64,000 bases of DNA from contig NZ_CP018016.1 of assembly GCF_000280495.2 (NCBI RefSeq), positions 1,860,001 through 1,924,000 of the forward strand, read 5' to 3'. The notes below the pieces were generated by a model. That model was not told where the DNA came from and ran no database searches. It was given only the letters and a program-made list of their open reading frames with translations. The DNA is from Kosakonia radicincitans DSM 16656. Lineage in GTDB: Bacteria; Pseudomonadota; Gammaproteobacteria; Enterobacterales; Enterobacteriaceae. This document shows positions 38,869 through 59,204 of the stretch, piece after piece; position 1 is the first letter of the stretch; each line of letters opens with the position of its first letter. A program made the position numbers and the translations under genes.

Positions 38869-39951
38869 GTGAAAATATTGGTTACCGGTGGCGCAGGCTT
38901 TATTGGCTCTGCAGTGGTTCGTCATATCATTAATAACACGCAAGATTCTGTGGTTAATGTCGATAAATTGACCTATGCAGGAAATCTTCAATCACTTACA
39001 GACGTCTCGGATAGCGAGCGTTATTTTTTTGAGCATGCGGATATTTGCAATGCAGCAGAAATGGCGCGTATCCTGGATGAGCACAAGCCGGATGCGGTAA
39101 TGCACCTGGCTGCGGAAAGCCATGTTGACCGTTCTATCACCGGGCCTGCGGCCTTCATTGAAACCAATATTGTAGGCACCTACGTATTGCTGGAAGCTGT
39201 TCGTGCGTATTGGTCCTCGCTGGCAGATGCGGCAAAAAAAGCATTCCGTTTTCATCATATCTCGACAGATGAAGTTTACGGTGATTTGCCACATCCTGAT
39301 GAGCAGCCGCAAGGTCAGCCGTTACCGCTGTTTACTGAAAAAACGGCCTATGCGCCGAGCAGCCCTTACTCCGCGTCAAAAGCCTCCAGCGATCATCTGG
39401 TTCGCGCCTGGTTACGTACCTATGGTATGCCTACCATTGTCACCAACTGTTCCAATAACTACGGTCCTTACCACTTCCCGGAAAAATTGATCCCGCTGGT
39501 TATTCTCAATGCGCTTGAAGGCAAACCGTTGCCAATCTATGGCAAAGGCGATCAAATCCGCGACTGGTTGTACGTTGAAGATCACGCCCGTGCCCTCTAT
39601 ACCGTGGTTACTCAGGGTGTTGGCGGTGAAACTTACAACATTGGCGGCCATAACGAAAAACAGAACCTCGATGTTGTCTATACAATCTGTGATTTGCTTG
39701 ATGAGATCGTGCCGAAAACCGGTTCTTACCGCGATCAAATCACCTATGTTACCGATCGTCCTGGCCACGACAGGCGGTACGCCATCGACGCTGAGAAAAT
39801 CAGTCGCGAACTGGGCTGGAAACCGCAGGAAACCTTTGAGTCGGGCATCCGTAAGACAGTGCAGTGGTACCTCGATAATCAGAATTGGGTTGAGAACGTT
39901 AAAAGCGGCGCGTACAAAAGCTGGATCGAACAGAACTACGAGAAGCGTTAA
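38869..39951 (+). CDS. rmlB: RmlB (RfbB), dTDP-glucose 4,6-dehydratase
   Basis: Second step of dTDP-L-rhamnose synthesis: NAD-dependent 4,6-dehydration of dTDP-glucose. The 360-residue SDR protein starts with GTG or the equivalent codon at 38869 ([17 protein letters not shown]), has the STDEVYGD catalytic strand near residue 132 (Thr-Asp-Glu triad), [11 protein letters not shown] (YxxxK) near 167, and [14 protein letters not shown]. First gene of the O-antigen operon, in the order rmlB-D-A-C. Confidence 0.97.
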
Positions 39952-39953
39952 TC

Positions 39954-40853
39954 ATGAATATTTTGTTATTCGGTAAAACGGGGCAGGTAGGTTGGGAGCT
40001 GCAACGTGCGCTGGCGCCCCTTGGCAAGGTGGTTGCTGTTGACGTTCACTCTGCTGAGTATTGTGGTGATTTCAGTAAACCGAACGAGGTGGCTGAAACC
40101 GTTCGCCGTATTCGCCCTGATGTGGTGGTGAATGCCGCTGCGCACACTGCCGTGGATAAAGCTGAATCAGAGCGTGAGTTTGCGCAACTGCTGAATGCAA
40201 CCAGTGTCGAGGCCATTGCGCGTGAAGTTGGCGCGATTGGCGGCTGGCTGGTGCACTATTCGACGGATTATGTTTTTCCTGGCACCGGTGACAAACCCTG
40301 GTGTGAAACGGATGCTCCCGCGCCGCTGAATGTCTATGGTGAGACTAAGCTGGCAGGGGAAAAGGCCGTCCAGCAACATTGCCCTCATCATCTTATTTTC
40401 CGTACCAGTTGGGTCTACGCCAGCAAAGGAAATAACTTTGCCAAAACAATGCTTAAACTGGCGAAAGACCGCGAAGAGCTCTCCATTATCGATGATCAGT
40501 ATGGTGCACCAACCGGTGCTGAATTACTGGCCGACTGTACGGCGCATGCGATTCGTACTGCAATGAGTAAACCGGAGGTCGCCGGGCTTTACCATCTGGT
40601 TGCTGCGGGAACCACAACCTGGTACGCCTTTGCGCAAATGGTGTTTGACGAGGCGAGGAAAGCGGGTTTAACACTGGCGCTTAATAAAGCTAACCCGATT
40701 GCTACAGAAGCTTATCCGACTCCAGCGAAGCGCCCTGGTAATTCGCGCCTCAACACAGAAAAATTCCAGCGTGAATTCGGTCTTGTTCTGCCTCCATGGG
40801 AGAACGGCGTAAAACGTATGCTTGCTGAGCTCTTTGCTGCAACGTCAAATTAA
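39954..40853 (+). CDS. rmlD: RmlD (RfbD), dTDP-4-dehydrorhamnose reductase
   Basis: Last step of dTDP-L-rhamnose synthesis, reducing the 4-keto group with NADPH. The 299-residue protein has GKTGQVGWELQRAL at residues 7-20, NAAAHTAVDKAES near 63, HYSTDYVFPG near 102 and VYGETKLAGE with the catalytic YxxxK near 128. It begins two bases after rmlB and is followed by rmlA after 48 bases. Confidence 0.97.
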   Translation: MNILLFGKTGQVGWELQRALAPLGKVVAVDVHSAEYCGDFSKPNEVAETVRRIRPDVVVNAAAHTAVDKAESEREFAQLLNATSVEAIAREVGAIGGWLVHYSTDYVFPGTGDKPWCETDAPAPLNVYGETKLAGEKAVQQHCPHHLIFRTSWVYASKGNNFAKTMLKLAKDREELSIIDDQYGAPTGAELLADCTAHAIRTAMSKPEVAGLYHLVAAGTTTWYAFAQMVFDEARKAGLTLALNKANPIATEAYPTPAKRPGNSRLNTEKFQREFGLVLPPWENGVKRMLAELFAATSN

Positions 40854-40901: not shown

Positions 40902-41780
40902 ATGAAAACACGTAAAGGAATCATACTGGCGGGCGGTTCGGGAACCCGCTTGTATCCGGTAACAATGGCAGTGAGCAAACAACTGTTGCCGATTTACGAT
41001 AAGCCAATGATTTATTATCCCCTGTCCACACTGATGCTGGCCGGGATTCGCGATATTCTGATCATCAGCACGCCGCAGGATCTCCCCCGTTTTGAACAGT
41101 TGCTTGGTGATGGAAGCCAGTGGGGATTAACCCTGCATTATAAAGTTCAGCCAAGCCCGGACGGGTTGGCGCAGGCATTTATCCTCGGTGAAGAATTTAT
41201 TGGTAACGATCCTTGCGCACTGGTGCTGGGCGACAATATTTTCTATGGCCATGATTTGCCGAAACTGATGGATACAGCGGTCAACCAGGAAAGCGGCGCG
41301 ACTGTTTTTGCCTATCATGTTACCGATCCTGAACGCTACGGTGTCGTCGAGTTTGATAGCGAAGGTACTGCTGTCAGCCTGGAAGAGAAGCCGCTGGAAC
41401 CGAAAAGTAATTATGCGGTGACCGGTCTCTATTTTTACGATAATGATGTGGTTGCGCTGGCGAAAAGTCTGAAGCCTTCGGCTCGCGGTGAATTAGAGAT
41501 TACCGATATCAATCGCCTTTACATGGAGCAGGGCCGTTTGTCCGTAGCGATGATGGGGCGTGGTTATGCGTGGCTGGATACCGGTACCCACCAGAGTTTG
41601 ATTGAAGCCAGTAATTTTATTCAGACCATTGAAGCACGGCAGGGGCTTAAAGTTTCTTGTCCTGAAGAGATTGCTTACCGCAAGAATTTCATTGATGCAG
41701 AGCAGGTTAAAAAATTGGCTGAGCCGCTGAAAAAAAATGCTTACGGTCAATATCTGCTAAGAATGGTTAAAGGTCACTAA
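40902..41780 (+). CDS. rmlA: RmlA (RfbA), glucose-1-phosphate thymidylyltransferase
   Basis: First committed step to dTDP-rhamnose: dTTP plus glucose 1-phosphate to dTDP-glucose. The 292-residue protein shows [20 protein letters not shown] at residues 11-30, [27 protein letters not shown] and VSLEEKP motifs. It is feedback-inhibited by dTDP-rhamnose in the family. It precedes rmlC by two bases. Confidence 0.97.
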
Positions 41781-41782: not shown

Positions 41783-42331
41783 ATGAAAATCGTTGAGACT
41801 GCGATCCCTGATGTATTAATTTTTGAGCCAAAGGTTTTTGGCGATGATCGCGGCTTTTTCTTTGAAAGCTTCAGCCAGCGTCAGTTTGAAGAGGCGGTTG
41901 GGCGTAAAGTACAATTCGTGCAGGACAATCACTCCAAATCCAAAAAAGGGGTTTTACGTGGTCTGCATTATCAGTTAGATCCCCATGCTCAGGGAAAACT
42001 GGTGCGTGCTGTAGCAGGGGAAGTTTTTGATGTTGCGGTAGATGTTCGCAAAAGCTCACCGACATTTGGGCAGTGGGTCGGCGTACATTTATCCGCGGAA
42101 AATAAGCGTCAGTTGTGGATCCCTGAAGGTTTTGCACATGGATTTGTCGTGTTAAGCGATAGCGCTGAATTTGTTTATAAAGCCACCAATTATTACTGCC
42201 CGCAGTCGGAAAGTAGTATCATCTGGAACGATCCGGAATTGAATATCGCGTGGCCGCTAGCCGTAGAGCCTGAGCTCTCCGGCAAAGATGCGGTGGCGCC
42301 TTCATTTACCTCAGCGAAATTTTTCGAGTAA
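41783..42331 (+). CDS. rmlC: RmlC (RfbC), dTDP-4-dehydrorhamnose 3,5-epimerase
   Basis: Cupin-fold epimerase acting on dTDP-4-keto-6-deoxyglucose at C3 and C5. The 182-residue protein has DDRGFFFESFSQ, QDNHSKSKKGVLRGLHYQ (catalytic His about 65), GEVFDVAVDVRKSSPTFG and the IPEGFAHGF loop with YKATNYY (catalytic Tyr region). It closes the rhamnose block; ddhD starts six bases later. Confidence 0.96.
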   Translation: MKIVETAIPDVLIFEPKVFGDDRGFFFESFSQRQFEEAVGRKVQFVQDNHSKSKKGVLRGLHYQLDPHAQGKLVRAVAGEVFDVAVDVRKSSPTFGQWVGVHLSAENKRQLWIPEGFAHGFVVLSDSAEFVYKATNYYCPQSESSIIWNDPELNIAWPLAVEPELSGKDAVAPSFTSAKFFE

Positions 42332-42337: not shown

Positions 42338-43312
42338 GTGTCACATGTAATTAAAATATTCCCTGCTGATATTGCCTTTGAAGGCGACAGCGGGAAAACG
42401 CTGCTTGATTCTGCCCTTGATTCAGGTATCCACCTTGAACACAGCTGTAAAAACGGCAGTTGTGGTATTTGCGAAGCCGGACTGATGGCCGGGGAAGTGA
42501 TCGATGCCGAGGGCCAGGTTATTACTGCAGGAAATAATATCCTGACATGTAGTTGCCGTCCCCAGGGTGATATATCGCTACAGGCAACGTATTATCCTGA
42601 GCTTGCCGGGCAGGTTAAAAAAATCACCCCATGTAAAGTGGTTAGCGCTGAAAATGTTTCTGCGGACGTAATCAAGTTGCTGCTGCGTTTCCCGCCGACG
42701 GCGCAGATTAACTACTTACCGGGTCAGTATATTAATTTGCAGTATCAAGGTGTAACGCGCAGTTACTCAATTGCTAATGCCAATGAAAAAGAAGGCATTG
42801 AATTGCATATTCGCAATGTGCCTGATGGACAAATGAGCCAGTTAATTTTCGGCGGGCTTGCGGCAAATACATTGATGCGAATTGAAGGACCGTGCGGAAC
42901 ATTCTTCATCCGTAACAATGAGCGCCCGGTAATATTTATCGCCGGAGGGACGGGGTTCGCTCCGGTAAAAGCGATGGTTGAATCGCTGATTGCCGAAAAT
43001 ACGCAACGGAAGATCTATATCTATTGGGGAATGCAGCATTCAACGCATTTCTATTCGTCTTTACCTCAGCAATGGGCTGATGCGAATCCTGATATCCATT
43101 TTATTCCTGTGGTCTCAGGTGAAGAAAGCAACTGGCAAGGACGTAAGGGTTTTGTTCACAATGCGGTCGTGGAAGACTTCGAAAACTTAGCGGATTTCGA
43201 TGTTTATGCTTGTGGTTCACCTGTGATGATCGACGCGAGCCGAAAAGATCTGATGACATTGGGATTACCGGCTAAACACTTTTATGCGGACGCGTTTACC
43301 GTATCAAAATAA
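42338..43312 (+). CDS. ddhD: DdhD (RfbI), CDP-6-deoxy-glucoseen reductase (E3)
   Basis: NADH-dependent flavo-iron-sulfur reductase that passes electrons to DdhC in CDP-3,6-dideoxyhexose synthesis. It begins at GTG 42338 (protein [12 protein letters not shown]), 324 residues. The N-terminal plant-type ferredoxin domain has Cys37, Cys42, Cys45 and a fourth cysteine at 71 or 73. Then come the FAD motif RSYSIAN near residue 147, the NAD site [13 protein letters not shown] near 208 and the C-terminal [10 protein letters not shown]. The close likeness to Salmonella RfbI supports the name. Confidence 0.95.
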
Positions 43313-43328: not shown

Positions 43329-44102
43329 ATGAAAGCCGTTATTTTAGCCGGTGGGTTGGGTACACGTTTAAGTGAAGAGACCGTATTAAAACCAAAACCC
43401 ATGGTTGAAATCGGTGGTAAACCGATTTTATGGCATATCATGAAAATGTATTCCGCTCACGGTATCCGTGATTTTGTTATTTGCTGCGGGTACAAGGGAT
43501 ATGTCATTAAAGAGTATTTCGCCAACTATTTTCTGCATATGTCTGATGTGACTTTTCATATGGCTGAAAATCGTATGGAAGTTCATCAGAAGCGTGTAGA
43601 ACCCTGGAACGTTACACTCGTTGATACGGGCGAAGCCTCAATGACTGGCGGACGCCTGAAACGCGTACGTGAGTATGTGAAAGATGACGAGGCTTTTCTG
43701 TTTACTTACGGTGATGGCGTATCTGATTTGGATATTAGCGCGACGATCGATTTCCATCGTAAACATGGCAAAAAAGCCACGCTGACCGCTACTTTTCCGC
43801 CAGGCCGTTTTGGTGCGCTGGATATTCAGAATCGCCAGGTTCGCTCGTTCAAAGAAAAACCGAAAGGCGATGGTGCGATGATCAATGGTGGGTTCTTTGT
43901 CCTGCACCCGTCAGTTATCGATCTGATCGAAAACGATGCGACGACGTGGGAACAGGAACCGCTGATGCGTTTGGCTGAACAGGGCGAGTTAATGGCGTTT
44001 GAGCATCCTGGTTTCTGGCAGCCGATGGATACCCTTCGTGATAAAACTTATCTGGAAGGCCTTTGGGAAAAAGGGAATGCTCCCTGGAAAACGTGGGAGT
44101 AA
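43329..44102 (+). CDS. ddhA: DdhA (RfbF), glucose-1-phosphate cytidylyltransferase
   Basis: Makes CDP-glucose from CTP and glucose 1-phosphate, the entry to CDP-dideoxyhexoses. ATG 43329 is taken because the nucleotide-binding motif begins at residue 2 ([17 protein letters not shown]) and this gives 257 residues, the Salmonella length; upstream in-frame codons overlap ddhD. Others are [19 protein letters not shown] and [11 protein letters not shown]. ddhB follows after three bases. Confidence 0.97.
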
Positions 44103-44105: not shown

Positions 44106-45185
44106 ATGATTGACGCATCATTCTGGAAAGGTAAACGAGTCTTTATCACCGGTCATACAGGTTTTAAAGGCTCATGGTTGACGCTCTGGCTGCAATCGAT
44201 GGGTGCGGTGCTGAAGGGGTATTCGCTGAATCCTCCTACCGAGCCTTCTTTATATGAAAGCGCGGCTGTCGACGATCTGATTGATTCCACGATTGGCGAT
44301 ATTCGTAACTTCGATCAGTTACATGCGGCAATCAGCGCGTTCAGGCCTGAAATCGTCTTTCATATGGCCGCGCAGCCGCTGGTCAGACTCTCCTACGATG
44401 AGCCTATCGAGACCTATTCGACCAATGTAATGGGCACAGTCCATTTACTGGAAGCGGTTAAACGCGTGGGTGGCGTAAAGGCGATCGTCAACATTACCAG
44501 TGACAAATGCTACGAAAACCGCGAATGGGTCTGGGGATATCGTGAGCATGAGGCAATGGGGGGTTACGATCCTTACTCAAACAGTAAAGGATGCGCTGAG
44601 CTAGTAGCCTCTGCCTACAGAAACTCATTTTTTAATGAAAAAGACTATGCAAAACACGGAGTAGCTCTCGCTTCCGTGCGTGCAGGTAACGTGATTGGCG
44701 GTGGTGACTGGGCGAAAGATCGTTTGATTCCGGATATCCTGCGTTCCTTTGAGAACAACCAAACTGTTATTATCCGCAACCCACACGCTATTCGCCCGTG
44801 GCAGCATGTGCTTGAACCTCTCTCTGGTTACATCGCTATCGCTCAGCGATTGTATGAGGAAGGCCCTGCTTTCGCTGAGGGCTGGAACTTTGGACCACGC
44901 GAAGATGATGCAATGCCCGTGCAGTTTATCGTCGAAACCATGGTGAAAATTTGGGGAGACGATGCAGCGTGGCTGTTAGACGGTAATGAGCATCCACACG
45001 AAGCTCACTATTTGAAACTCGATTGCTCCAAAGCGCGTATGCGTCTGGGGTGGCAGCCGCGCTGGAATTTAGTTGAAACGCTGGAGCGTATTGTGAAATG
45101 GCATAAAGCATGGATTGCTGGTGAAGATATGCTTGCTCGTTCACGGAATGAAATCAGCGAATACATGAACACCTCTTTGAAATAA
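44106..45185 (+). CDS. ddhB: DdhB (RfbG), CDP-glucose 4,6-dehydratase
   Basis: NAD-dependent SDR enzyme converting CDP-glucose to CDP-4-keto-6-deoxyglucose. The 359-residue protein has GHTGFKGSWLTLWLQSMGA near residue 15, HMAAQPLVRLSYDEP near 83, the NITSDKCYEN active-site strand, and DPYSNSKGCAEL with YxxxK near 158. VIGGGDWAKDRLIPD is typical of the CDP-glucose type. It is packed between ddhA and ddhC. Confidence 0.97.
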   Translation: MIDASFWKGKRVFITGHTGFKGSWLTLWLQSMGAVLKGYSLNPPTEPSLYESAAVDDLIDSTIGDIRNFDQLHAAISAFRPEIVFHMAAQPLVRLSYDEPIETYSTNVMGTVHLLEAVKRVGGVKAIVNITSDKCYENREWVWGYREHEAMGGYDPYSNSKGCAELVASAYRNSFFNEKDYAKHGVALASVRAGNVIGGGDWAKDRLIPDILRSFENNQTVIIRNPHAIRPWQHVLEPLSGYIAIAQRLYEEGPAFAEGWNFGPREDDAMPVQFIVETMVKIWGDDAAWLLDGNEHPHEAHYLKLDCSKARMRLGWQPRWNLVETLERIVKWHKAWIAGEDMLARSRNEISEYMNTSLK

Positions 45186-45206: not shown

Positions 45207-46520
45207 ATGAGCGCAAATAACCTGCGTGAGCAAATCTCTCAACTAGTTGCCCAATATGCTGACGAAGCGTTAAGTCCAAAGCCGTTTGTTGCTGGCAGCA
45301 GTGTCGTACCGCCTTCTGGCAAAGTGATTGGCGCAAAAGAGCTTCAATTGATGGTAGAAGCATCGCTGGATGGCTGGTTAACTACGGGCCGTTTTAACGA
45401 TGCTTTTGAAAAAAAACTGGGTGAGTTTATTGGTGTCCCGCATGTTCTGACCACCACTTCAGGCTCTTCAGCAAACCTGCTGGCATTAACTGCATTGACG
45501 TCGCCAAAACTGGGTGACCGCGCCCTCAAACCGGGTGATGAAGTGATTACAGTTGCTGCGGGGTTCCCGACTACCGTTAACCCGACGATCCAGAATGGTT
45601 TAATTCCGGTATTTATCGATGTTGATATTCCGACTTATAACGTCGATTCGAAACTGATTGAAGCTGCAGTATCAGATAAAACCAAAGCTATTATGATTGC
45701 CCATACGCTGGGTAATGCCTTCGATCTGACGGAAGTTCGCCGTATTGCCGATAAATATAATCTGTGGCTGATTGAAGACTGCTGCGATGCTCTTGGTACG
45801 ACTTATGACGGCAAAATGGTCGGTACTTTTGGTGATATCGGCACCGTAAGTTTCTATCCTGCTCACCATATTACGATGGGTGAGGGTGGCGCGGTGTTCA
45901 CCAAATCTGCTGAACTGAAAAAGCTGATTGAGTCTTTCCGTGACTGGGGCCGTGATTGCTACTGTGCACCGGGCTGTGATAACACCTGCGGCAAGCGTTT
46001 CGGTCATCAGTTGGGTTCGCTGCCGTTCGGCTACGATCACAAATATACCTATTCTCATCTGGGTTATAACCTCAAAATTACCGATATGCAGGCAGCGTGT
46101 GGCCTGGCGCAGTTGGAGCGTATTGATGAATTCGTTCGTCTGCGTAAAGAGAACTTTGCATATCTCAAGCAAGGTCTTCAGTCTTGTGCTGAGTTCCTGG
46201 AATTACCGGAAGCTACTGAAAAATCGGATCCATCATGGTTTGGTTTCCCGATTACACTCAAAGAAACCAGCGGCGTTACGCGCGTTGACCTGGTGAAATT
46301 CCTTGATGACGCAAAAATCGGTACCCGCTTATTGTTTGCCGGTAACCTTACCCGCCAGCCATATTTTGCAAATGTGAAATATCGTGTTGTTGGTGAGTTA
46401 ACCAATACTGACCGCATTATGAATCAGACTTTCTGGATCGGTATTTATCCAGGCCTGACAAAAGAACATTTGGATTATGTCGTTTCCAAATTTGAAGAGT
46501 TCTTTGGTCTGAATTTCTAA
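45207..46520 (+). CDS. ddhC: DdhC (RfbH), CDP-4-keto-6-deoxyglucose 3-dehydrase (E1)
   Basis: PMP-dependent, iron-sulfur enzyme that removes the C3 hydroxyl to create the 3,6-dideoxy skeleton with DdhD. ATG 45207 (MSANNLREQ) gives 437 residues, as in Salmonella; AGGAAAA precedes it. The PLP-lysine is replaced by His220 in [14 protein letters not shown], diagnostic of this class. The [2Fe-2S] ligands Cys193, Cys251, Cys253 and Cys261 keep the spacing C-X57-C-X1-C-X7-C known for the Yersinia E1 enzyme. It ends the block of base composition like the host; the next gene is A+T-rich. Confidence 0.97.
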
Positions 46521-46541: not shown

Positions 46542-47420
46542 ATGCAAAATAGAAAGATCATATTAACCGGTGCCAGTGGTTTCATTGGTGCAAAACTTTT
46601 AGAGCGTTTACTGGCCATTGGTTATGAGGTTTTTGCAATAAAACGCCCGAATAGCGACAGAACAACATGTGGCAAGGTCACATGGCTAACATATGATGAA
46701 TTAAAAATGAGATCAGCAGAGTTAGATACTGTTGATGCAATTATTCATCTTGCCACTGAATATGGTCGAAATGTTCAGGATGGGCTATCTCCTGTGCTGG
46801 CTTGTAATGTTTTACTTCCTCTTCAGTTAATGGAGTTAGCCGCAGTTGTCGGTATTAAAAAATTTATTTCAACAGATTCATTTTTTGGTAAGTATGAAAA
46901 AACATATAACTATATGAAGTCGTATATTATTTCTAAGCGACAATTAAATGAATTGGCTGAAATATTCTGTGCGGAAAATGAACTTTCTTTTTTCAATATG
47001 CGACTTGAGCATGTCTATGGTGAAGGGGATGGTGAAAATAAATTCATTCCTTTCATTATAAGGTCACTGCAACAGAATGATCATGCAATTAAGTGTACAA
47101 CTGGGTTGCAGAAAAGAGATTTTGTTTATATTGATGATGTCGTTGATGCCTATATTGCTGTAATTAAATGTGAAGCAAAAAGAAAATATACTGAATTTGA
47201 GGTTGGGACTGGGGTGTCAAGCCCGTTAAAAGAAATTATCGAAGAAATAAAAAGACAGCTACCCAGTAATACCAGTATTGACTACGGTGCGATCCCGCTT
47301 CGACATGATGAAATAATGGATTCGAAGGCTAATATAAGCGCGTTGATGGATATTGGTTGGACAGCAACATACGATTTGAGACGTGGCGTCGAAAAGATGC
47401 TGGGCAGTATTAAGCGATGA
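46542..47420 (+). CDS. abe: CDP-4-keto-3,6-dideoxyglucose reductase, abequose synthase-like
   Basis: Short-chain reductase that should complete the CDP-3,6-dideoxyhexose; by position and the motifs STDSFF (residues 110-115) and RLEHVYGEGD it resembles Salmonella RfbJ (CDP-abequose synthase). Seen also are GASGFIGAKLLE near residue 10, the catalytic Tyr128-I-I-S-Lys132 and LQKRDFVYIDDVVDAY near 188. A paratose synthase or ascarylose-type reductase is possible, since they differ in C4 stereochemistry only. No paratose 2-epimerase (tyv) follows, which argues against tyvelose. 292 residues, A+T-rich, and overlapping wzx by four bases. Confidence 0.78.
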   Translation: MQNRKIILTGASGFIGAKLLERLLAIGYEVFAIKRPNSDRTTCGKVTWLTYDELKMRSAELDTVDAIIHLATEYGRNVQDGLSPVLACNVLLPLQLMELAAVVGIKKFISTDSFFGKYEKTYNYMKSYIISKRQLNELAEIFCAENELSFFNMRLEHVYGEGDGENKFIPFIIRSLQQNDHAIKCTTGLQKRDFVYIDDVVDAYIAVIKCEAKRKYTEFEVGTGVSSPLKEIIEEIKRQLPSNTSIDYGAIPLRHDEIMDSKANISALMDIGWTATYDLRRGVEKMLGSIKR

Positions 47421-49772: not shown

Positions 49773-50369
49773 ATGTTGCGAAGTATAATCGTTAGTTGTT
49801 TTCTTAAACAGCAAAGAGTCAGAAAAAAAATCAAAGCGTTAATTTTTACTCTGATCTATGGTCATTCATTTTCTTCTATAGGTAAAAATTTTAAGTTATA
49901 TATTAAACCGTATGGCGTTCCCACGATCAAAAAAATTAATAATATCCGTGTGGGGGATAATTGTTGGGTGGAAACAGTATATCGTTATGGTAATAACGAT
50001 TTTAGCCCCGTTTTGCTTATTGGTGAAAATGTTGCAATGAGTGATTTTGTGCATATTTCTTGCGCATATAAAATTAAAATAGGCAAAGGCGTGCTGATTG
50101 GCAGTAAGGTTTATATTGGTGATCATAGTCACGGTGAATATAAAGGGAAAAGCTATCAGAATGACGCGCCAGCAAACCGACCCCTTGGTGATTTCGGTGA
50201 GATTATAATAAGTGATAATTGCTGGATCGGTGATAATGCAGTAATTCTGGGGGGGAGCGAGATTGGCGAGGGCTGTATTATTGCGGCAAACTCTGTTGTG
50301 AGAAACCTCAAAGTAACACAGCCATCTCTAATTGGTGGTATTCCTGCAAAAATTATCAAAACCTTATGA
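49773..50369 (+). CDS. O-acetyltransferase of the left-handed beta-helix family (WbaL-like)
   Basis: 198-residue hexapeptide-repeat acyltransferase, probably acetylating the O-unit in the cytoplasm. The repeat region runs from about residue 65, with KINNIRVGDNCWVE, IGKGVLIGSKVYIGDHSHGEY (catalytic His about 116) and NCWIGDNAVILGGSEIGEGC, ending SLIGGIPAKIIKT as in WcaF/WbbJ-type enzymes. Its place between two GT2 genes matches wbaL in the Salmonella C2 cluster, assigned there to rhamnose O-acetylation (from memory). It overlaps the following gene by four bases. Confidence 0.8.
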   Translation: MLRSIIVSCFLKQQRVRKKIKALIFTLIYGHSFSSIGKNFKLYIKPYGVPTIKKINNIRVGDNCWVETVYRYGNNDFSPVLLIGENVAMSDFVHISCAYKIKIGKGVLIGSKVYIGDHSHGEYKGKSYQNDAPANRPLGDFGEIIISDNCWIGDNAVILGGSEIGEGCIIAANSVVRNLKVTQPSLIGGIPAKIIKTL

Positions 50370-51415
50370 AGGATAATATGTTTATTAGTATATGTATTCC
50401 CTCTTATAATCGCGCTGAATTTTTAGAACCGTTATTAGATAGCATCTATAATCAGAGTTATGTCAAAGACCACGATGATTTTGAGGTGATTATATGTGAG
50501 GATGTGTCGCCACAACGTGAGGAAATTAATGCAATCGCAGTTGCATATCGCGATAAGCATAACCTGACAAACCTCAAAGTTGTATTGAATGAAGAAAATC
50601 TAGGGTATGATCGCAACTTAAGACATTGCTTTGAAGTGACTACCGGCAAGTATTGTCTGATCATGGGCAACGATGATCTCCTCAACGTTAATGCCCTGGA
50701 AAAAATTGTTACGACGTTAAAAGCTAACCCTGATGTTGTTCTTGCAACTCGCGCTTATGGCTGGTTTAAGGAAGATCCTAATGAGTTATGCGATGTTGTT
50801 AAGCATCTGGGGCACGACCAATTATTTGAACCAGGATTAGATGCAATTAAATTCTTCTTCCGTAGAGTAGGTGTAATTTCTGGTTTTGTGGTTGATGCTG
50901 CCAAAGCCAGATCTGTCGCTTGTGATAAATTTGATGGCCGTTTGTACTATCAGATGTATTTGGCTGGCATGTTGTTGACGCAGGGAAAAGGTTATTATTT
51001 TAGCGATATTATGACACTTTCCCGTGATACCGAAGCACCAGATTTTGGTAACGCAGGGACCGAAAAGGGAGTATTTGTACCTGGCGGTTACAAACCGGAA
51101 GGGCGAATTCATATGGTCGAGGGGCTTTTATTGATTGCCAGACATATTGAAGAAGTCAGCAAAATTTCGGGCGTATACAATGCTATCAAACATGACATTG
51201 CGAATTATTTTTATCCCTATATCCGCGACCAATTGTCACTTCCTTTCTCATCTTATTTGAAGATGATTAATAAATTCCGAAGTATTGGCTTCAATAATGA
51301 GCCTCTTTTTTATGCTCATTCTCTGCTGGGATATGTTTTGAAACGTGATGGATATGATGCCATGATCAAATTCATTAGGAAGCGAAACGGCGGAACGCCA
51401 AGGCTTGGCATTTGA
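50366..51415 (+). CDS. O-antigen glycosyltransferase, GT2 (WbaQ-like, candidate rhamnosyltransferase)
   Basis: Family 2 glycosyltransferase of 349 residues. Motifs are ISICIPSYNRAEFLEPLLDS at residues 7-26, FEVIICEDVSPQREEI near 38, ENLGYDRNLRHCFEV near 77 and the metal site LIMGNDDLLNV near 98. A C-terminal half with no clear motif carries a helical region. By position it equals wbaQ, the rhamnosyltransferase of the C2-type cluster; the alternative is that this and the preceding GT2 have swapped roles. Its start overlaps the acetyltransferase stop (ATGA). Confidence 0.75.
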   Translation: MKDNMFISICIPSYNRAEFLEPLLDSIYNQSYVKDHDDFEVIICEDVSPQREEINAIAVAYRDKHNLTNLKVVLNEENLGYDRNLRHCFEVTTGKYCLIMGNDDLLNVNALEKIVTTLKANPDVVLATRAYGWFKEDPNELCDVVKHLGHDQLFEPGLDAIKFFFRRVGVISGFVVDAAKARSVACDKFDGRLYYQMYLAGMLLTQGKGYYFSDIMTLSRDTEAPDFGNAGTEKGVFVPGGYKPEGRIHMVEGLLLIARHIEEVSKISGVYNAIKHDIANYFYPYIRDQLSLPFSSYLKMINKFRSIGFNNEPLFYAHSLLGYVLKRDGYDAMIKFIRKRNGGTPRLGI

Positions 51416-51449: not shown

Positions 51450-52727
51450 ATGTACACAAATCTCATATCGTTACTGCTTGCAGTTAACCTGATATCGCCA
51501 TACCTGAGTTCCTGGTTTAATAATATTTTACCTTTCCCTCCAGGGGCTATGTTAAGGGATATTATTAGCTTTGTGTTGATAGCAATAATATTGAGTCGCG
51601 TTTTTTTGGTAAGGGAAAAACTGGATATGTTCAAGGTTTTTCTCTTATTTACCTGGCTTTCACTTGCTGCGCTGGTCTTAGTTTTAATTGTTTATTCACC
51701 AGACAAAATACAAGCAATAATGGGGGCTCGAAGCTATATTCTATTCCCTTCAATATTTATCTGTGTAGCGATGCTGACGCGAAGAGAGAAAAGTGATGTC
51801 AATGTCTATAAACTTAGCCGGTTTAGTGTATATACGCTGACAATCTGTGCTCTGATAGCCATCATCGATGTATTCATGCATGGTGAATTCATTAAGCTGT
51901 TAGGATATGACTCTCACTATGCGGGAGAACAATTCAGACTCATAGATAGTTACGATGATACAATCCGAGCGACCGGAGGATTTAGTGATGCCTTAAATTT
52001 TGGCTATACGCTGGCAATAGGTATTTTTCTGTGTATGGAGTGTTACGCCCAAAGAATCATGCGCAAGCGAATGCTGATTTTGAGCATCATAATGTCAGTT
52101 GCCGTGTGCATGACGTTAACGAGGGGGGCAATACTTATTGTATTTTTGATCTATTTCGCCTATTTCGTAACAAATCGCACATTGATAAAAACGGCTTTTA
52201 TGCTGTGTATCTTAATGATTCCGGTTATTGCCCTCCAAACTGATTATCTGGATAAATATACTGATCTCCTTGTCGGCAGGTTTACGGATTCATCTGCTAC
52301 GTCGAAAGGATCTACTCAGGGGCGTTTTGATATGGCAGCAAAATCGATGGCATATCTGGCAGATAATCCGATGGGGGTTGGTCTGGGTACTCAAGGATCA
52401 GGTAATTTGATCGCGCAGGATGATAAGCGTATTAATACGGACAATTATTTTTTTTGGATGGCCTTAGAGACGGGTATCCTGGGATTGATACTAAACCTGA
52501 TATATATTAGCACTCAATTTATTTATGGATTCTCCCGGCAATTGGTTAGTGAAAAAATCCATCCGCTGCGTCCTTATATGGTTATGGCAATGGCGTATTT
52601 TATTGCTTCAGCACTGAGTTCGGCGCCATCTTCATCCACGTTCTCGCTGTTCTTTTGGTGTGTTCTGGCTTTATTGCCTGGGTTAAAATTACATAAAGGA
52701 TATTATGAAAAAAATCATAATGGATAG
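51450..52727 (+). CDS. wzy: Wzy, O-antigen polymerase
   Basis: Polytopic inner-membrane protein of 425 residues with about ten hydrophobic helices and a large central periplasmic loop (about residues 150-190 and 270-340). It carries the O-antigen ligase/polymerase family marker MTLTRGAILIVFLIYF near residue 215 and NPMGVGLGTQGSGN near 306. It should join O-units at the periplasmic face, with chain length set by Wzz. The linkage cannot be predicted. The ribosome site is weak, and its 3' end overlaps the next transferase by 23 bases. Confidence 0.88.
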   Translation: MYTNLISLLLAVNLISPYLSSWFNNILPFPPGAMLRDIISFVLIAIILSRVFLVREKLDMFKVFLLFTWLSLAALVLVLIVYSPDKIQAIMGARSYILFPSIFICVAMLTRREKSDVNVYKLSRFSVYTLTICALIAIIDVFMHGEFIKLLGYDSHYAGEQFRLIDSYDDTIRATGGFSDALNFGYTLAIGIFLCMECYAQRIMRKRMLILSIIMSVAVCMTLTRGAILIVFLIYFAYFVTNRTLIKTAFMLCILMIPVIALQTDYLDKYTDLLVGRFTDSSATSKGSTQGRFDMAAKSMAYLADNPMGVGLGTQGSGNLIAQDDKRINTDNYFFWMALETGILGLILNLIYISTQFIYGFSRQLVSEKIHPLRPYMVMAMAYFIASALSSAPSSSTFSLFFWCVLALLPGLKLHKGYYEKNHNG

Positions 52728-53694
52728 TAGTTGGCTGGGTAAAGGGGGGATTGGCCGTTTTACCTTTGAGTTGACACACTATTTAAAAAAAATAGATAGC
52801 CGGGAGTTCTATAAAAATTGTGCATCGCCATTAGCAACAATTGTTACGGCATTTAAATCATTATCAGTAAATAAAAAAGATGTGATTTTCTTTCCCGGAT
52901 ATATTCCACCCTTGTTTTGTGCCTGTAACTATATTTTTACCATTCATGATTTAAATCATATTGACATTGATGATAATGCATCGCGAACAAAAGATTTTTT
53001 TTATGAATATGTCATAAAACATGGCTGTCGTCGCGCTGAATACATATTTACCGTTTCTGATTTCTCCCGCAATCGTATCGCTGAATGGTCTGGTGTTGCT
53101 AAAGATAAAATAATTAATGTTGGGAACGGGGTTTCCAAAAATTTTAACGCCAGTGTCACTCCCTATAAACCGGGTTATGAATATTTGTTGTGCGTTAGTA
53201 ACCGTAAAACACATAAAAATGAAAAAAGAATTATTCATTCGTTTGCCCGGTCTGATATCGATCCGACAATTAAATTAGTTCTAACCGGTAAACCCACTAA
53301 CGAACTTTTAGCACTTATTGACGAAGTCGGATGTAAGGAACGGGTTATTTTTACAGGTTTTATATTGGAAGATGACTTGCCTGGTTTATACCGCGGTTCA
53401 CTTGCGCTTATTTTCCCATCGCTGTATGAGGGGTTTGGCTTGCCAGTGATTGAGGCGATGGCTTGCGGTGTGCCTGTTGTAACATCAACTGTTACCTCTT
53501 TACCTGAAGTTGCAGGTGATGCAGCACTGTTAGTGGATCCTGAATCCGTCGAACAAATTACGGCTGCAATAAATGAAATCGTGAATAACACAGAAACTCG
53601 AGCCATGATGATTGATAAAGGTTTTGCGCAGGCTAAATTGTTCAGTTGGGAAGAAGTGGCCAGAAAAATTTCTAAAGTCTTTGAAGAGATATAA
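52705..53694 (+). CDS. O-antigen mannosyltransferase candidate, GT4 (WbaW-like)
   Basis: Family 4 GT-B transferase of 329 residues. The N-terminus has DSSWLGKGGIGRFTFELTHY; the acceptor side has TIHDLNHIDI near residue 78; the C-terminal donor site has LVLTGKP, RGSLALIFPSLYEGFGLPVI near 235 and EAMACGVPVVTS with the EX7E glutamates. AAGGATATT precedes the ATG inside wzy. GDP-mannose is the probable donor because the cluster carries its own manC-manB and this position is wbaW in C2-type loci. Confidence 0.78.
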   Translation: MKKIIMDSSWLGKGGIGRFTFELTHYLKKIDSREFYKNCASPLATIVTAFKSLSVNKKDVIFFPGYIPPLFCACNYIFTIHDLNHIDIDDNASRTKDFFYEYVIKHGCRRAEYIFTVSDFSRNRIAEWSGVAKDKIINVGNGVSKNFNASVTPYKPGYEYLLCVSNRKTHKNEKRIIHSFARSDIDPTIKLVLTGKPTNELLALIDEVGCKERVIFTGFILEDDLPGLYRGSLALIFPSLYEGFGLPVIEAMACGVPVVTSTVTSLPEVAGDAALLVDPESVEQITAAINEIVNNTETRAMMIDKGFAQAKLFSWEEVARKISKVFEEI

Positions 53695-53695
53695 G

Positions 53696-54853
53696 ATGAA
53701 TATTACGGAAACGAAGATTTCACTTGTTCATGAGTGGCTACTTTCATACGCTGGTTCAGAACAAGTTTCTGCCGCGATTCTTAACGTTTATCCAGATGCT
53801 GAGCTATTCTCTGTGGTTGATTTTTTAACCGATGAACAGCGCTCTTTTTTCCATGGGAAAATAGCAACAACCACATTTATTCAAAAGCTGCCGAAAGCTA
53901 AAAGGCTTTATCAAAAATACTTGCCATTGATGCCCTTGGCTATTGAGCAACTCGATGTTTCCGCTGCTGATATCGTTATTTCAAGTGCGCATGCGGTAGC
54001 GAAAGGCGTGATTACAGGTCCGGATCAGTTACATATAAGTTATGTCCATTCACCGATACGCTATGCCTGGGATTTACAGCATCAATATCTACGTGAATCA
54101 GGATTGAATAATGGGCTGAAGGGGTGGCTGGCAAAATGGGTTTTGCACAAAATGCGTATCTGGGATTGCCGTACTGCAAATGGTGTCGATCATTTTGTGG
54201 CAAACTCTCAGTACATTGCCCGCAGAATTAAAAAGGTGTATGGGCGAGACGCAGATGTCATATATCCACCTGTCGCGGTTGAAAAATTTAAAGTCGGAAC
54301 TGAAAAGTCAGATTTTTACTTAACTGCTTCACGGATGGTGCCGTATAAGCGTATTGGCCTGATTGTTGAAGCTTTCAATGCAATGCCTGATAAAAAGCTT
54401 ATTGTTATTGGTGATGGTCCTGAGTTTGAAAAAATTAAAAAAAGTGCAGCTTCGAATGTGACAATTATGGGATATCAACCCTTCGACGTTCTTAAGCAAC
54501 ATATGGAAAAAGCCAAAGCCTTCGTTTTCGCAGCAGAAGAAGATTTCGGCATCATTCCGGTAGAAGCGCAGGCATGTGGAACTCCTGTTATTGCTTTCGG
54601 TAAAGGTGGTGCGCTGGAGACGGTGATTCCCATGGGTTGCAACGAGCCAACAGGCGTATTTTTTTCGCAACAAACTTCGAAATCTATTATTGATGCCATT
54701 CAAGTCTTCGAAAATAACATAGGCCTGTTCACCCCTGAATCGTGCCGAAAGAACGCTGAACGATTTTCGCAAGAAAGATTCGAGCGTGAATTTAATATTT
54801 ATGTCGACTCAAAATGGACCGAGTTTTGCAATTCTCGACAGATAATTCGTTAA
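53696..54853 (+). CDS. O-antigen mannosyltransferase candidate, GT4 (WbaZ-like)
   Basis: Family 4 GT-B transferase; ATG 53696 is chosen because the conserved N-terminus KISLVHEWLLSYAGSEQV begins there, giving 385 residues; an upstream in-frame ATG would lie in the preceding gene. Further motifs are SYVHSPIRYAWDLQHQYL near residue 118, ASRMVPYKRIGLIVEAF near 212 and FGIIPVEAQACGTPVIAFGKGG near 283. This is the WbaZ-type mannosyltransferase family. It begins one base after the preceding stop, and manC follows after 13 bases. Confidence 0.8.
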   Translation: MNITETKISLVHEWLLSYAGSEQVSAAILNVYPDAELFSVVDFLTDEQRSFFHGKIATTTFIQKLPKAKRLYQKYLPLMPLAIEQLDVSAADIVISSAHAVAKGVITGPDQLHISYVHSPIRYAWDLQHQYLRESGLNNGLKGWLAKWVLHKMRIWDCRTANGVDHFVANSQYIARRIKKVYGRDADVIYPPVAVEKFKVGTEKSDFYLTASRMVPYKRIGLIVEAFNAMPDKKLIVIGDGPEFEKIKKSAASNVTIMGYQPFDVLKQHMEKAKAFVFAAEEDFGIIPVEAQACGTPVIAFGKGGALETVIPMGCNEPTGVFFSQQTSKSIIDAIQVFENNIGLFTPESCRKNAERFSQERFEREFNIYVDSKWTEFCNSRQIIR

Positions 54854-54866: not shown

Positions 54867-56291
54867 ATGAACAAGATAATGCCTGTGATCATGGCTGGTG
54901 GCAGTGGTAGTCGTTTATGGCCGCTTTCACGAGAAATGTATCCAAAACAATTCCTGGAAGTTGAGGGCAACATGACCATGTTGCAGCATACTGTGCAACG
55001 GCTGAAAGAATTAAAGACTTATTCGCCGGTTGTCATATGCAATAATGAACACAGGTTTTTGGTCGCAGAGCAGTTACGCACTATTGATAAACTTGCAGAC
55101 AATATTATTCTGGAACCAGTAGGTCGGAATACCGCACCTGCGATAGCATTAGCTGCATTCACTATTTTAAAAAATATTGATAAAGATGTTGAGCCGATAA
55201 TGCTTGTGCTTGCCGCTGATCATATTATCCAGAATGAGGGCGCTTTTGTCTCTTCAGTGATGCACGCGGTCCCTCACGCTGAGCAAGATAAATTAGTGAC
55301 ATTTGGTATTGTTCCTTCTCATCCTGAAACGGGCTATGGCTATATTCGCCGTGGTCAGGCTCAGGGTAATGATGCTTTTGTTGTGGCCGAGTTTGTGGAA
55401 AAACCTGACTATGATGTCGCTTGCAACTATATTTCCAGCGGTGAGTATTACTGGAATAGCGGCATGTTTATGTTTAAAGCAAAAAGCTATCTTGATGAGT
55501 TAAAACGATATAGACCAGATATTTATGCATGCTGTGAAGCTGCCGTGAAGCATACCGATCGCGACCTGGATTTTGTTCGTATCGATGAGCAAGCCTTTTC
55601 GCAATGCCCTGCTGAATCGATTGACTATGCTGTCATGGAGCATACTGAACACGCTATCGTCGTTCCAATGGATGCAGGTTGGTCAGATGTCGGTTCGTGG
55701 TCATCACTCTGGGATATCTCGCAAAAAGATGAGGATGGAAACGTTCAACGCGGTGATGTCGTTCAGTTTGATTGTCGTGACACCTATGTGCATGCCGAAG
55801 ATGCTTTAGTCGCTACCCTCGGTTTACAAAATACTGTGGTAGTACAGACCTGCGATGCCATCTTGATTGCTGATAAAAACCACGTACAGAACGTCAAAAA
55901 AGTCGTAGAGCATTTGAAATCGGCGCGTCGTACGGAGCATCGCGATCATCGTGAAATCTTTCGTCCATGGGGAAGCGTCCGTACTCTTGTACAGGGACAG
56001 GAATATTTGGTCCGCAAAGTCGTAGTTCGTCCTGAGAAACAGCTGACCGCGCAGATCCACCATCACAGGGCTGAGCACTGGACTGTCGTTTCCGGACGGG
56101 CAAAAGTCATCCTTAACGATCGCGAATATTATGTTGAAGAAAATCAGTCAACATTTATTCCAGCAGGTGTAACCCATGTACTGGCAAATCCTGGCTTAAT
56201 TCCCCTGGAAATAATAGAAATTCAGTCAGGAAAGAATTTAAGCGAAGACGATATTATTCGTGTTGGAAATTTTGTTTCAGAGAAGAAATAG
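54867..56291 (+). CDS. manC: ManC (RfbM), mannose-1-phosphate guanylyltransferase, O-antigen copy
   Basis: Second GDP-mannose pyrophosphorylase of the window, serving the O-antigen mannosyltransferases. The 474-residue protein has [20 protein letters not shown] at residues 11-30, VEFVEKPDYD-type FVEKP near 173 and the C-terminal cupin [16 protein letters not shown] near 402. It is clearly homologous to the colanic acid copy at 27574 but differs at many positions and is richer in A+T, so the two are not a recent duplication. Its 3' end abuts manB (one base between). Confidence 0.95.
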   Translation: MNKIMPVIMAGGSGSRLWPLSREMYPKQFLEVEGNMTMLQHTVQRLKELKTYSPVVICNNEHRFLVAEQLRTIDKLADNIILEPVGRNTAPAIALAAFTILKNIDKDVEPIMLVLAADHIIQNEGAFVSSVMHAVPHAEQDKLVTFGIVPSHPETGYGYIRRGQAQGNDAFVVAEFVEKPDYDVACNYISSGEYYWNSGMFMFKAKSYLDELKRYRPDIYACCEAAVKHTDRDLDFVRIDEQAFSQCPAESIDYAVMEHTEHAIVVPMDAGWSDVGSWSSLWDISQKDEDGNVQRGDVVQFDCRDTYVHAEDALVATLGLQNTVVVQTCDAILIADKNHVQNVKKVVEHLKSARRTEHRDHREIFRPWGSVRTLVQGQEYLVRKVVVRPEKQLTAQIHHHRAEHWTVVSGRAKVILNDREYYVEENQSTFIPAGVTHVLANPGLIPLEIIEIQSGKNLSEDDIIRVGNFVSEKK

Positions 56292-56292: not shown

Positions 56293-57720
56293 ATGTCAGA
56301 TTATTTAAGCAATGTCGTAATTAAAAATTCAAATATCAATTTTGGTACCAGTGGTGCCAGAGGTTTGGTAACAGATTTCTGTCCAGAAGTTTGTGGTGCT
56401 TTTACTGCTAATTTTCTGAAGGTTAGTGCTGCTAATTACTCTTTCAACACTGTTGCCATCGGAATTGACAATCGCCCCAGTAGCTATGATATGGCAAGGG
56501 CGTGTGCAGCGGTTATTGCATTTATGGGATTTAAGCCGTTGTATTGTGGGGTCATACCCACACCAGGCTTGGCTTACTATGCCCTTGAAGAGAAAATTCC
56601 GGCAATAATGATCACGGGGAGTCACATTCCTTTCGATCGGAATGGTTTAAAATTCTATCATCCAAACGGCGAAATCACTAAAGCTGACGAAGTGGCGATA
56701 CTGGCGGAAGAGATACCATTCAGCATGCCCGTAATGCTTCCGGCATTGAATGTTTGCCCGGTCGCCAGCGAAAAATATGTCGAACGCTATACTTCCTTTT
56801 TCCCAAAAAATGCATTAACCGGTTTGCGAATTGGCATCTATGAGCACTCAAGTGCTGGCAGAGATATTTATCCCCAGATTTTCTCTACACTTGGAGCCGA
56901 TGTTGTCAGTTTAGGACGCAGTGATTCGTTTGTTCCTATCGATACAGAAGCGGTTTCGGCGGAAGATCGGCAGCGCGCAAAGGAATGGTTGCGTGAGTTT
57001 GATCTTGACGCTGTCTTTTCAACGGATGGAGATGGGGATCGTCCTTTGCTAAGTGACGAAAACGGACAATGGCTGCGAGGCGATATCCTTGGGCTGCTAT
57101 GTTCTGCTCACCTTGGTGTCACTGCTGCAGCTGTACCAGTAAGCTGTAATAGCATTATCGCGGCAAGTGGATTAATTCCTGAGGTAGTTCTAACGAAAAT
57201 TGGTTCGCCGTATGTTATTGCTGCGTTGGAATCGTTGCTTAATAAATTCGAAAATGTCGCTGGTTTCGAAGCGAATGGCGGTTATATGCTGGCCAGTAAT
57301 ATTCATAAGTATGGGCGTACGCTCAAAGCACTACCTACGCGTGATGCCTTACTACCAGCGGTGACGCTGCTGGTTTCCAGCCAGCAGAAAAAAATCAGTG
57401 CACAAGTACAAGCACTGCCTGCACGTTACACTTCTTCAGACCGGCTTCAGGAGTTTGCTGCAAGCCGCAGCACAGCTCTGCTGGCAAAAGTAGTTGCAGA
57501 TGCGAATTCCGTTATTAAAGATTTCGGGTTCCATAACATGAGCGTGGCAGGAATGGATATGACGGACGGTGTGAGATTGCGACTGGATAATCTTGATATT
57601 ATTCATCTGCGTCCGTCCGGCAACGCACCAGAGCTTCGCTGCTATGCTGAGTCCACAACTTCAGATAAAGCTGATGAATTGGTCAGAATGACACTTACTG
57701 CAATTAAGGAAAAGTTCTGA
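56293..57720 (+). CDS. manB: ManB (RfbK), phosphomannomutase, O-antigen copy
   Basis: RfbK-type phosphomannomutase of 475 residues; start ATG 56293 follows the manC stop directly. The N-terminus has INFGTSGARGLVTDF, the phosphoserine loop TGSHIPFDRNGLKFY near residue 110, the metal loop STDGDGDRPL near 243, GFEANGGYML near 328 and the C-terminal phosphate site RPSGNAPELRCYAE. Matches to Salmonella group RfbK are strong by recall. It differs deeply from CpsG at 29120 though both do the same reaction. Confidence 0.94.
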   Translation: MSDYLSNVVIKNSNINFGTSGARGLVTDFCPEVCGAFTANFLKVSAANYSFNTVAIGIDNRPSSYDMARACAAVIAFMGFKPLYCGVIPTPGLAYYALEEKIPAIMITGSHIPFDRNGLKFYHPNGEITKADEVAILAEEIPFSMPVMLPALNVCPVASEKYVERYTSFFPKNALTGLRIGIYEHSSAGRDIYPQIFSTLGADVVSLGRSDSFVPIDTEAVSAEDRQRAKEWLREFDLDAVFSTDGDGDRPLLSDENGQWLRGDILGLLCSAHLGVTAAAVPVSCNSIIAASGLIPEVVLTKIGSPYVIAALESLLNKFENVAGFEANGGYMLASNIHKYGRTLKALPTRDALLPAVTLLVSSQQKKISAQVQALPARYTSSDRLQEFAASRSTALLAKVVADANSVIKDFGFHNMSVAGMDMTDGVRLRLDNLDIIHLRPSGNAPELRCYAESTTSDKADELVRMTLTAIKEKF

Positions 57721-57767
57721 TGATGAATATATACCAATTTTTCATTCAAAGAGCATGGTGAGAAAAC

Positions 57768-59204
57768 ATGGAGCTTAAGGATGTGCGGAATAATTACAAG
57801 CCTTTCTTGTGCCAGTTTTTTCTTGCGCTGTCAGACTTTATATTTTTCAATCTTTCATTAGTTTTTTCTCTCGCTCTGGTTTATTTTCTTTTTGATGACC
57901 TACAGCGCTTTATTCCAAAGGAGCAATTTCAGTTCCGTATTGTTTCGCACTTTATTTTATCGTTAACCTGCGTTGCCTGGTTTTTGATCAGGCTCCGACA
58001 TTACTCTTACCGGAAGCCTTTCTGGTATGAATTAAAAGAAATATTGCGCACTATCGTGATATTCGCCATTTTTGATCTGGCATTAATCGCGTTTACGAAA
58101 TGGCAATTCTCTCGTTTTGTTTGGGTTTTTTGCTGGAGTCTGGCGCTTTTTCTTGTCCCGTTTTTCCGCTTTTCTACAAAATTTCTGCTCAATAAATTTG
58201 GCATCTGGAGAAAGAAAACCATCATTTTGGGCAGCGGCAAAAATGCCCGTGAAGCCTATTACGCTCTGCAGAGTGAGGAAATGTTGGGCTTTGAGGTGTG
58301 CGCTTTTTTTGACGAGGAAAGCTCCGAAACTCATCTTTTGGATTGCCCAATAATAAAAGATGCGAATGATATCTGGCAGAGCGCCGATATTAAGCATATT
58401 CATTTTATTATTGCTTTTGATGTGGATGAAATCGACAAAACACTGGGTTGGTTAAGGGAACTATCCAAACACCAATGTCGCTCTGTTACTGTTATTCCTT
58501 CACTGAGAGGGCTACCGCTTTACAATACGGATATGTCTTTTATTTTCAGCCACGAAGTGATGTTGCTGCGTATCAATAATAACCTTGCAAAACGTACATC
58601 GCGTTTCCTGAAACGTACTTTTGACATTGTCTGTACATTGATCATCCTTATTGTCGCATCGCCGCTCCTTTTATATCTGTGGTACAAAGTTACGCGTGAT
58701 GGGGGGCCTGCAATCTATGGGCACCAGCGTGTTGGGCGTCACGGTAAGTTATTCCCATGCTATAAATTCCGCTCTATGGTAATGAATTCACAAGAAGTCT
58801 TACAGAATTTGCTGGATTCGGACCCGCAAGCGCGTGAGGAATGGGAAAAAGATTTTAAACTTAAAAACGATCCGCGAATCACCCGTGTTGGTCATTTTAT
58901 CCGTAAAACCAGCCTTGATGAGCTACCACAGCTCTTTAATGTCCTGAAAGGAGAAATGAGCCTGGTCGGACCGCGGCCGATTGTAACTGAGGAATTAGAA
59001 CGTTACGAACTGGACGTTGACTACTATCTGATGGCAAAACCTGGAATGACCGGTTTATGGCAAGTCAGCGGTCGTAACGACGTTGATTACGAAACACGTG
59101 TTTATTTTGATTCATGGTATGTAAAAAACTGGTCCTTGTGGAATGATATCGCCATTCTTTTTAAGACAGTAAAGGTCGTTCTTCGTCGGGATGGTGCTTA
59201 TTAG
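57768..59204 (+). CDS. wbaP: WbaP (RfbP), undecaprenyl-phosphate galactose phosphotransferase
   Basis: Starts O-units by transferring galactose 1-phosphate from UDP-Gal to undecaprenyl phosphate. The 478-residue protein (Salmonella RfbP 476) has four or more N-terminal helices, [20 protein letters not shown] near residue 87, a Rossmann-like part [17 protein letters not shown] and the catalytic domain with [47 protein letters not shown] and [25 protein letters not shown] precedes the ATG. It fixes Gal as the reducing-end sugar of the repeat. Confidence 0.95.

Follow-up and report, generated by a model that had tools for sequence, protein, structure and literature searches.

We analyzed a 64,000-nucleotide stretch of the genome of Kosakonia radicincitans DSM 16656 (NZ_CP018016.1, positions 1,860,001 to 1,924,000, hereafter the window; the whole genome is 6.12 Mb in 3 contigs), in which positions 38869-59204 hold a single intact 19-gene Wzx/Wzy O-antigen operon between galF and gnd. 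The genes run rmlBDAC-ddhDABC-abe-wzx-GT2-acetyltransferase-GT2-wzy-GT4-GT4-manC-manB-wbaP (Table 1; GT2 and GT4 are glycosyltransferase families). All 19 have open frames on the + strand, and the gaps between neighbours range from -44 to +57 bp. The distance from rmlB to wbaP is 20,336 bp, and that from wzx to gtZ is 7,437 bp. From abe through gtW the GC content is 35-40%, compared with 52% for galF and 54% for gnd.

Table 1. Features of the O-antigen locus and its flanks, in window coordinates.
Feature	Position	Strand	Basis
galF, left flank	37576..38469	+	TIGR01105 over cut-off
ops/JUMPstart core	38781..38791	+	exact GGCGGTAGCGT, upstream of rmlB
rmlB, dTDP-glucose 4,6-dehydratase	38869..39951	+	NCBIfam over cut-off
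rmlD	39954..40853	+	NCBIfam over cut-off
rmlA	40902..41780	+	NCBIfam over cut-off
rmlC	41783..42331	+	NCBIfam over cut-off
ddhD, CDP-6-deoxy-delta-3,4-glucoseen reductase (E3)	42338..43312	+	ferredoxin-reductase kind and position
ddhA, glucose-1-phosphate cytidylyltransferase	43329..44102	+	TIGR02623 over cut-off
ddhB, CDP-glucose 4,6-dehydratase	44106..45185	+	TIGR02622 over cut-off; PDB 1wvg, 1rkx
ddhC, RfbH dehydrase (E1)	45207..46520	+	NF011936 over cut-off
abe-type short-chain dehydrogenase/reductase (SDR), probable CDP-abequose synthase	46542..47420	+	identity to Abe, tree
wzx flippase	47417..48802	+	WZX_like below cut-off; 10 hydrophobic segments; 48% to Citrobacter MGH106
gtR, GT2, probable abequosyltransferase (WbaR position)	48759..49715	+	PF00535
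oac, hexapeptide O-acetyltransferase (WbaL position)	49773..50369	+	Hexapep; WbbJ-like below cut-off
gtQ, GT2, probable rhamnosyltransferase (WbaQ position)	50366..51415	+	PF00535; 97% to sister genome G392
wzy polymerase	51450..52727	+	PF04932; 93% to G392
gtW, GT4, probable second mannosyltransferase (WbaW position)	52705..53694	+	Pfam GT4
gtZ, GT4, probable first mannosyltransferase (WbaZ position)	53696..54853	+	Pfam GT4
manC	54867..56291	+	TIGR01479 over cut-off
manB, phosphomannomutase	56293..57720	+	Pfam PGM_PMM domains above cut-off; no NCBIfam cut-off reached
wbaP, undecaprenyl-phosphate galactose phosphotransferase	57768..59204	+	NF011751, 933 of 907 bits
gnd, right flank	59339..60745	+	94-96% protein identity to E. 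coli and Salmonella gnd

Nine of the operon genes (rmlB, rmlD, rmlA, rmlC, ddhA, ddhB, ddhC, wbaP and manC) score above curated NCBIfam cut-offs, and Pfam identifies two GT2 proteins, a hexapeptide acetyltransferase, Wzy_C and two GT4 proteins. WbaP matches a solved structure (PDB 8t53, E 1.8e-260), and the best PDB match of GtZ is 2f9f, annotated as 'first mannosyl transferase (wbaZ-1)' (E 1.6e-18). DdhD, which scores under all equivalog cut-offs, has 65% identity to the Salmonella group B protein in the same position. Wzx reaches 78 of the 300 bits required for WZX_like and has no match in Pfam at 0.001. GtR is 37% identical to a protein of Citrobacter sp. MGH106 and, over part of its length, 32% identical to WbaV. 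Relatives of the two GT4 proteins are found in E. coli: GtW is 42% identical to proteins of loci L019 and L021, and GtZ is 64-67% identical to GT4 proteins of loci L019-L021. In the wbaP locus of E. coli O9:H10, the gtW-like (42%) and gtZ-like (66%) genes are adjacent (L019:5914-8122). The wbaZ primers of PMC9769513 match gtZ relatives at 14 of 17 bases at best, which is uninformative.

The sequence-only reading had described this layout as equal, gene for gene, to the Salmonella serogroup C2 (O:8) cluster, in what looked like a non-Salmonella host. Both points hold: the 19 genes follow the order given in PMC3715488, PMC5591321 and PMC5722840, and the host falls in a different genus group (g1) from Salmonella (g46). 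The order, number and kinds of genes are those of the C2-C3 cluster, for which PMC5591321 likewise counts 19 genes and gives a wzx-wbaZ amplicon length of 7,547 bp. The region from rmlB to wbaP occupies 2169633-2190020 in S. Newport SL254 (PMC3715488 Table 1), from which we compute 20,388 bp, a length within 0.3% of that in the window. The window Abe is also about as distant from group B Abe (42%) as C2 Abe is (45%; PMC3715488). The C2 gene order mirrors function in reverse (PMC3715488) and, according to PMC5722840, the seven C2 genes wzx-wbaZ convert an O4 strain to O8; this block thus sets the O type. The agreement with C2 is one of plan, drawn against published descriptions; at the sequence level, the comparison with C2 covered its two published abe primers.

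Comparison with sister genomes shows that the locus is a three-block mosaic made up of rmlBDAC-ddhDABC, gtQ-wzy-gtW-gtZ-manCB-wbaP, and a private cassette, abe-wzx-gtR-(5' oac), between them. The first block is found in genome G072, where each gene from rmlB to ddhC is 93-95% identical in DNA to its window counterpart and the RmlBDAC-DdhDABC proteins are 96-99% identical. After ddhC, the two sequences are unalignable until a weak stretch in wbaP. In the G072 cluster (L050), an RmlC-like epimerase and a 288-amino-acid reductase replace abe, and wzx, wzy and the glycosyltransferases are different. The segment L050:3494-11755 holds ddhDABC, the epimerase, the reductase, the other wzx, glycosyltransferases and a TIGR04370 polymerase, with wbaP. 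We read the epimerase and reductase as a probable CDP-ascarylose-type pair.

The other half is found in genome G392. Here DNA identity is 90-95% from rmlB to rmlA, drops to 67-72% in rmlC, and is lost altogether from ddhD to gtR. It returns within oac, rising in 150-bp steps from position 49950 through 76, 76 and 87% to 95% in gtQ, and stays at 91-93% per gene from gtQ through manB; wbaP is 87% identical overall and 74-86% identical across its 3' end. The G392 cluster (L048) shares gtQ, wzy, gtW, gtZ, manC, manB and wbaP in the same order (proteins 93-97%) and a more distant acetyltransferase (73%), but has a WecE-type transaminase, another wzx and a further glycosyltransferase in place of ddhDABC-abe-wzx-gtR. 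The transaminase is over the cut-off for dTDP-4-amino-4,6-dideoxygalactose (Fuc4N). The large membrane protein that we read as Wzx has no BLASTP match to the window Wzx at 1e-5, the extra protein was read as GT4 by eye, and neither has an NCBIfam match at 1e-20. Two further genus-mates, G397 and G399, carry this Fuc4N-type cassette before another backbone, with 75% DNA identity for both (G397 proteins 87, 75 and 70%). The transaminase-wzx-glycosyltransferase genes are at L048:4704-8674 in G392 and L058:10482-14464 in G397, ahead of two different backbones.

What is private to the window is abe-wzx-gtR and most of the acetyltransferase gene, whose nearest kin found are in Citrobacter sp. MGH106 (37-50%). 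In that genome (L009), abe (50%), wzx (48%), gtR (37%) and the acetyltransferase (38%) follow rmlBDAC-ddhDABC in the same order, but the backbone is different, with no counterpart of gtQ, wzy or gtZ in the same place and a WbaN-like GT2 protein (by eye) before manCB. That MGH106 keeps the abe-wzx-gtR-oac order and then switches backbone is a further sign that the cassette moves as a unit.

Both shared halves appear to have diverged about as much as the species, given third-codon identities near those of neighbouring genes. Against G072, the ddh genes have values of 0.86-0.88, compared with 0.84 for gnd and 0.87 for ugd; against G392, the backbone genes have values of 0.81-0.84, compared with 0.85 for gnd and 0.89 for rmlB. 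A 6-kb upstream stretch ending inside galF is 93.6% identical to G392. Two histories would fit: inheritance of the halves with reshuffling through cassette replacement, or their exchange between sister species near the time of the split. The new observation, which is more informative than the locus itself, is that sister genomes hold its halves separately and that Wzx travels with the side branch and Wzy with the backbone.

The window Abe is 42% identical to Salmonella group B Abe and 29% to Prt. It retains S113, Y128 and K132, which do not vary among the four rows of an alignment that includes one partial row. In the abe tree, the window and Citrobacter MGH106 sequences are joined (95/96), while Salmonella, E. 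chuandaensis and genome G237 form a separate group B-type clade (99/99). The whole abe clade has 98/95 support with Prt outside, Prt and two other rows being long branches. For the CDP-abequose pathway, ddhA, ddhB and ddhC are over cut-off, and abe is provisionally assigned from the tree and the 42% identity. A scan of the genome contigs with the abe alignment gave 95 stretches that fit a pattern, 8 of which encode relatives; the list is incomplete for Salmonella, which is absent from it though group B abe holds both peptide patterns. The side-branch sugar predicted from these genes is a 3,6-dideoxyhexose, most likely abequose.

We favor, with a probability of roughly 0.75, a galactose (Gal)-initiated, abequose-branched Wzx/Wzy O antigen built on a C2-like plan, with a three-block mosaic history brought about by side-branch cassette exchange. 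The initial transferase is WbaP, and wzx and wzy both lie in the galF-gnd operon. We infer the sugar and linkage at each step as follows. WbaP would transfer Gal-1-phosphate onto undecaprenyl phosphate; GtZ and then GtW would add two mannoses (Man) and GtQ a rhamnose (Rha), which Oac would probably acetylate. RmlBDAC would supply dTDP-Rha, ManBC GDP-Man, and DdhABCD with Abe CDP-abequose, which GtR would add as the branch. Wzx would flip the unit and Wzy polymerize it, after which WzzB and a candidate ligase, both encoded at other chromosomal sites, could complete the O antigen. The sequence-only reading had predicted a Rha-Man-Man-Gal backbone with a dideoxyhexose branch; Gal, Man, Rha and a 3,6-dideoxyhexose are what the genes lead us to expect, and the structure itself stands as a reasonable proposal.

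Several points weigh against this reading. To our knowledge, function within the abe clade is established for the Salmonella B enzyme only. The relatives of gtZ include one in L020, a locus with wcaJ and hence glucose initiation, and gtZ homology is thus no proof of a Gal acceptor. The ligase candidate is recognized by its domain only. The third-codon identity of the G392 backbone is slightly below that of its gnd, which leaves exchange between species possible. No C2 sequence turned up among the E. coli genomes, plasmid records, viral contigs and five Salmonella genomes searched; the window wzx had no match in any of these five, a set without a known positive, so that this empty result shows nothing. 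Finally, the C2-specific abe primers of PMC2577679 match the window abe at 12 of 20 bases each, in the right place and with a spacing of -3; among 300 codon shuffles, 5 did as well as this total of 24/40 bases. Primers for group B also give 24/40 on the window abe (8/18 and 16/22), compared with 18/18 and 22/22 on group B abe as a control. The primers therefore cannot separate C2 from B; the low C2 match speaks against a recent Salmonella copy without placing the gene.

The strongest alternative is that the locus has the layout and sugars of C2 but departs from it in one or more linkages or in the sugar of the side branch, giving a distinct antigen with partial or no O8 cross-reaction. We rate its chances as just short of even: linkage is not readable from these families, and outside the host genus the central genes are distant from everything searched. 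In a sample of 392 genomes of the family, drawn from a larger group, wzy at 1e-5 was found in two, the host and one marginal match (E 6.4e-6), and gtQ at 1e-20 also in two, the host and G024 at 38%. Against a distinct antigen, the kinds and order of genes agree one-to-one with C2, where order reflects function. Cross-reaction with O8 serum, also raised by the sequence-only reading, is possible.

It is distinctly less probable that the product of the reductase is not CDP-abequose but CDP-paratose or a different 3,6-dideoxyhexose. Its identity to its nearest relatives is only 42-50%, but it is closer to Abe than to Prt, groups inside the abe clade, and is followed by no tyv gene. We think it very improbable that the locus encodes a group 1 K-type capsule. 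The adjacent gtW-gtZ relatives in E. coli L019 do share their wbaP locus with a tyrosine autokinase gene, but there is no wza-wzb-wzc among open reading frames of at least 120 amino acids between galF and gnd, the wza-type gene at 14732 stands before the colanic acid region, and wzzB and a ligase candidate are present; we rejected the capsule on these grounds. The notion that the Salmonella C2 cluster was recently transferred to this host as such, and encodes the O:8 antigen itself, deserves almost no weight despite the identical gene order and number and nearly identical length, and we rejected it on the primer matches, the DNA identity of the cluster genes to Salmonella group B (65-80% over alignable parts) and a ddh tree in which the window and G072 are joined (100/98) beside, not inside, a Salmonella-Citrobacter MGH106-E. 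chuandaensis-G237 clade (100/99); the halves held by sister species at about species-level divergence also contradict it. A Salmonella-group genome (g46) in the sample, G260, has Ddh proteins 99-100% identical to those of a Salmonella Abortusequi record.

In the family sample, abe was detected in 4 of 392 genomes at E 1e-30, the host included, and at 1e-25 in the host alone among the 15 genomes of its genus. Within the genus, wzy at 1e-5 is found in 4 of 15 (the host, G392 at 93%, G397 at 34% and G399 at 33%). A wbaP gene with at least 50% identity lies near gnd in 6 of 14 genus-mates, or at least 7 of 15 with the host; the gnd-side stretches compared were up to 20 kb (two each for G392 and G394), and because some stop short of galF this count is a lower bound. 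The genome nearest by gnd (G398, 97% DNA) has a different cluster beside gnd. Window positions 47417-51415 have no match in 5,426 E. coli genomes. Positions 51430-54860 match in 728 of these, and the eight matches listed all fall within 2302-3388 of the query, which is gtZ. A search with gtQ of 72,556 plasmid records gave 40 matches, all below 60% identity and none covering 80% of the query, and viral contigs yielded no relative. Open-licence PMC literature on the Kosakonia O antigen, C2 genes, abequose in Citrobacter or Enterobacter, and WbaZ included no such cluster among the matches listed.

Five records filed as Salmonella plasmids (NZ_CP022016.1, CP075030.1, NZ_CP148876.1, CP148755.1 and CP148763.1) do carry whole O-antigen loci, none with the C2 layout: one is group B (Abortusequi), one prt-tyv (serovar India) and three are Infantis. 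All contain galF, O-antigen and his genes, and so look like chromosome pieces. The prt-tyv genes of the India record are unlike the C1 type that we take this serovar to be.

The locus and its sisters show that a C2-type layout exists in a host other than Salmonella, and they pair its backbone genes with a different side branch. The window-G392 pair represents a natural experiment on flippase specificity, since their Wzy proteins are 93% alike and their Wzx proteins, which move with the side-branch genes, are unrelated. Diagnostic antisera could be misled by an O8-like antigen from a host that is not Salmonella, and a C2 abe PCR (polymerase chain reaction) would probably miss this locus. A similar arrangement is found in Yersinia pseudotuberculosis O antigens, which, according to PMC6436433, have a common main chain and Wzy, swapped dideoxyhexose genes and unrelated wzx genes; their main chain is a different one, of GlcNAc, Gal and 6-deoxymannoheptose. 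A doubtful extension is that the host genus maintains a long-standing, modular repertoire of Gal-initiated O antigens, where side-branch cassettes with their own Wzx are swapped onto common backbones that share a Wzy, and that such lineages were the pool for Salmonella C2-C3; that these cassettes would be of abequose, Fuc4N and ascarylose type is an equally speculative part of this idea. If it is true, the closest kin of C2 abe, wzx and wbaR in trees should be the genes of the window and Citrobacter MGH106, and those of wbaQ-wbaZ the genes of the window and G392.

Other features of the window and genome were also noted. The only other exact match to GGCGGTAGCGT in the window is at 14541, ahead of the wza-type export gene; three further sites have one mismatch, and shuffled sequence averages 0.94. 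The wzzB gene starts at 1923365 on contig C1, directly after the SDR epimerase at 62215-63219 that the sequence-only reading had called uge, and precedes genes that, by eye, resemble the his operon. The ligase candidate is another protein with a Wzy_C domain, at C1:107362. The NudK/DeoR islet of the same reading is present at 11030-12454, where a NudK-like pyrophosphatase (NF011585, 209.5 of 234 bits) is beside a DeoR-family regulator, and GC content dips to 44-46% at 21001-23000, upstream of the locus. The host is probably nitrogen-fixing: two nitrogenase-reductase genes over the nifH cut-off lie outside the window (C1 positions 2337010 and 2905867). Across the genus, 10 of 15 genomes have nifH over cut-off, compared with 3 of 14 control genomes. 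The first 12,000 positions of a 290-kb contig outside the window (G000:C2:1-12000) are 100% identical to large Citrobacter and Klebsiella plasmids.

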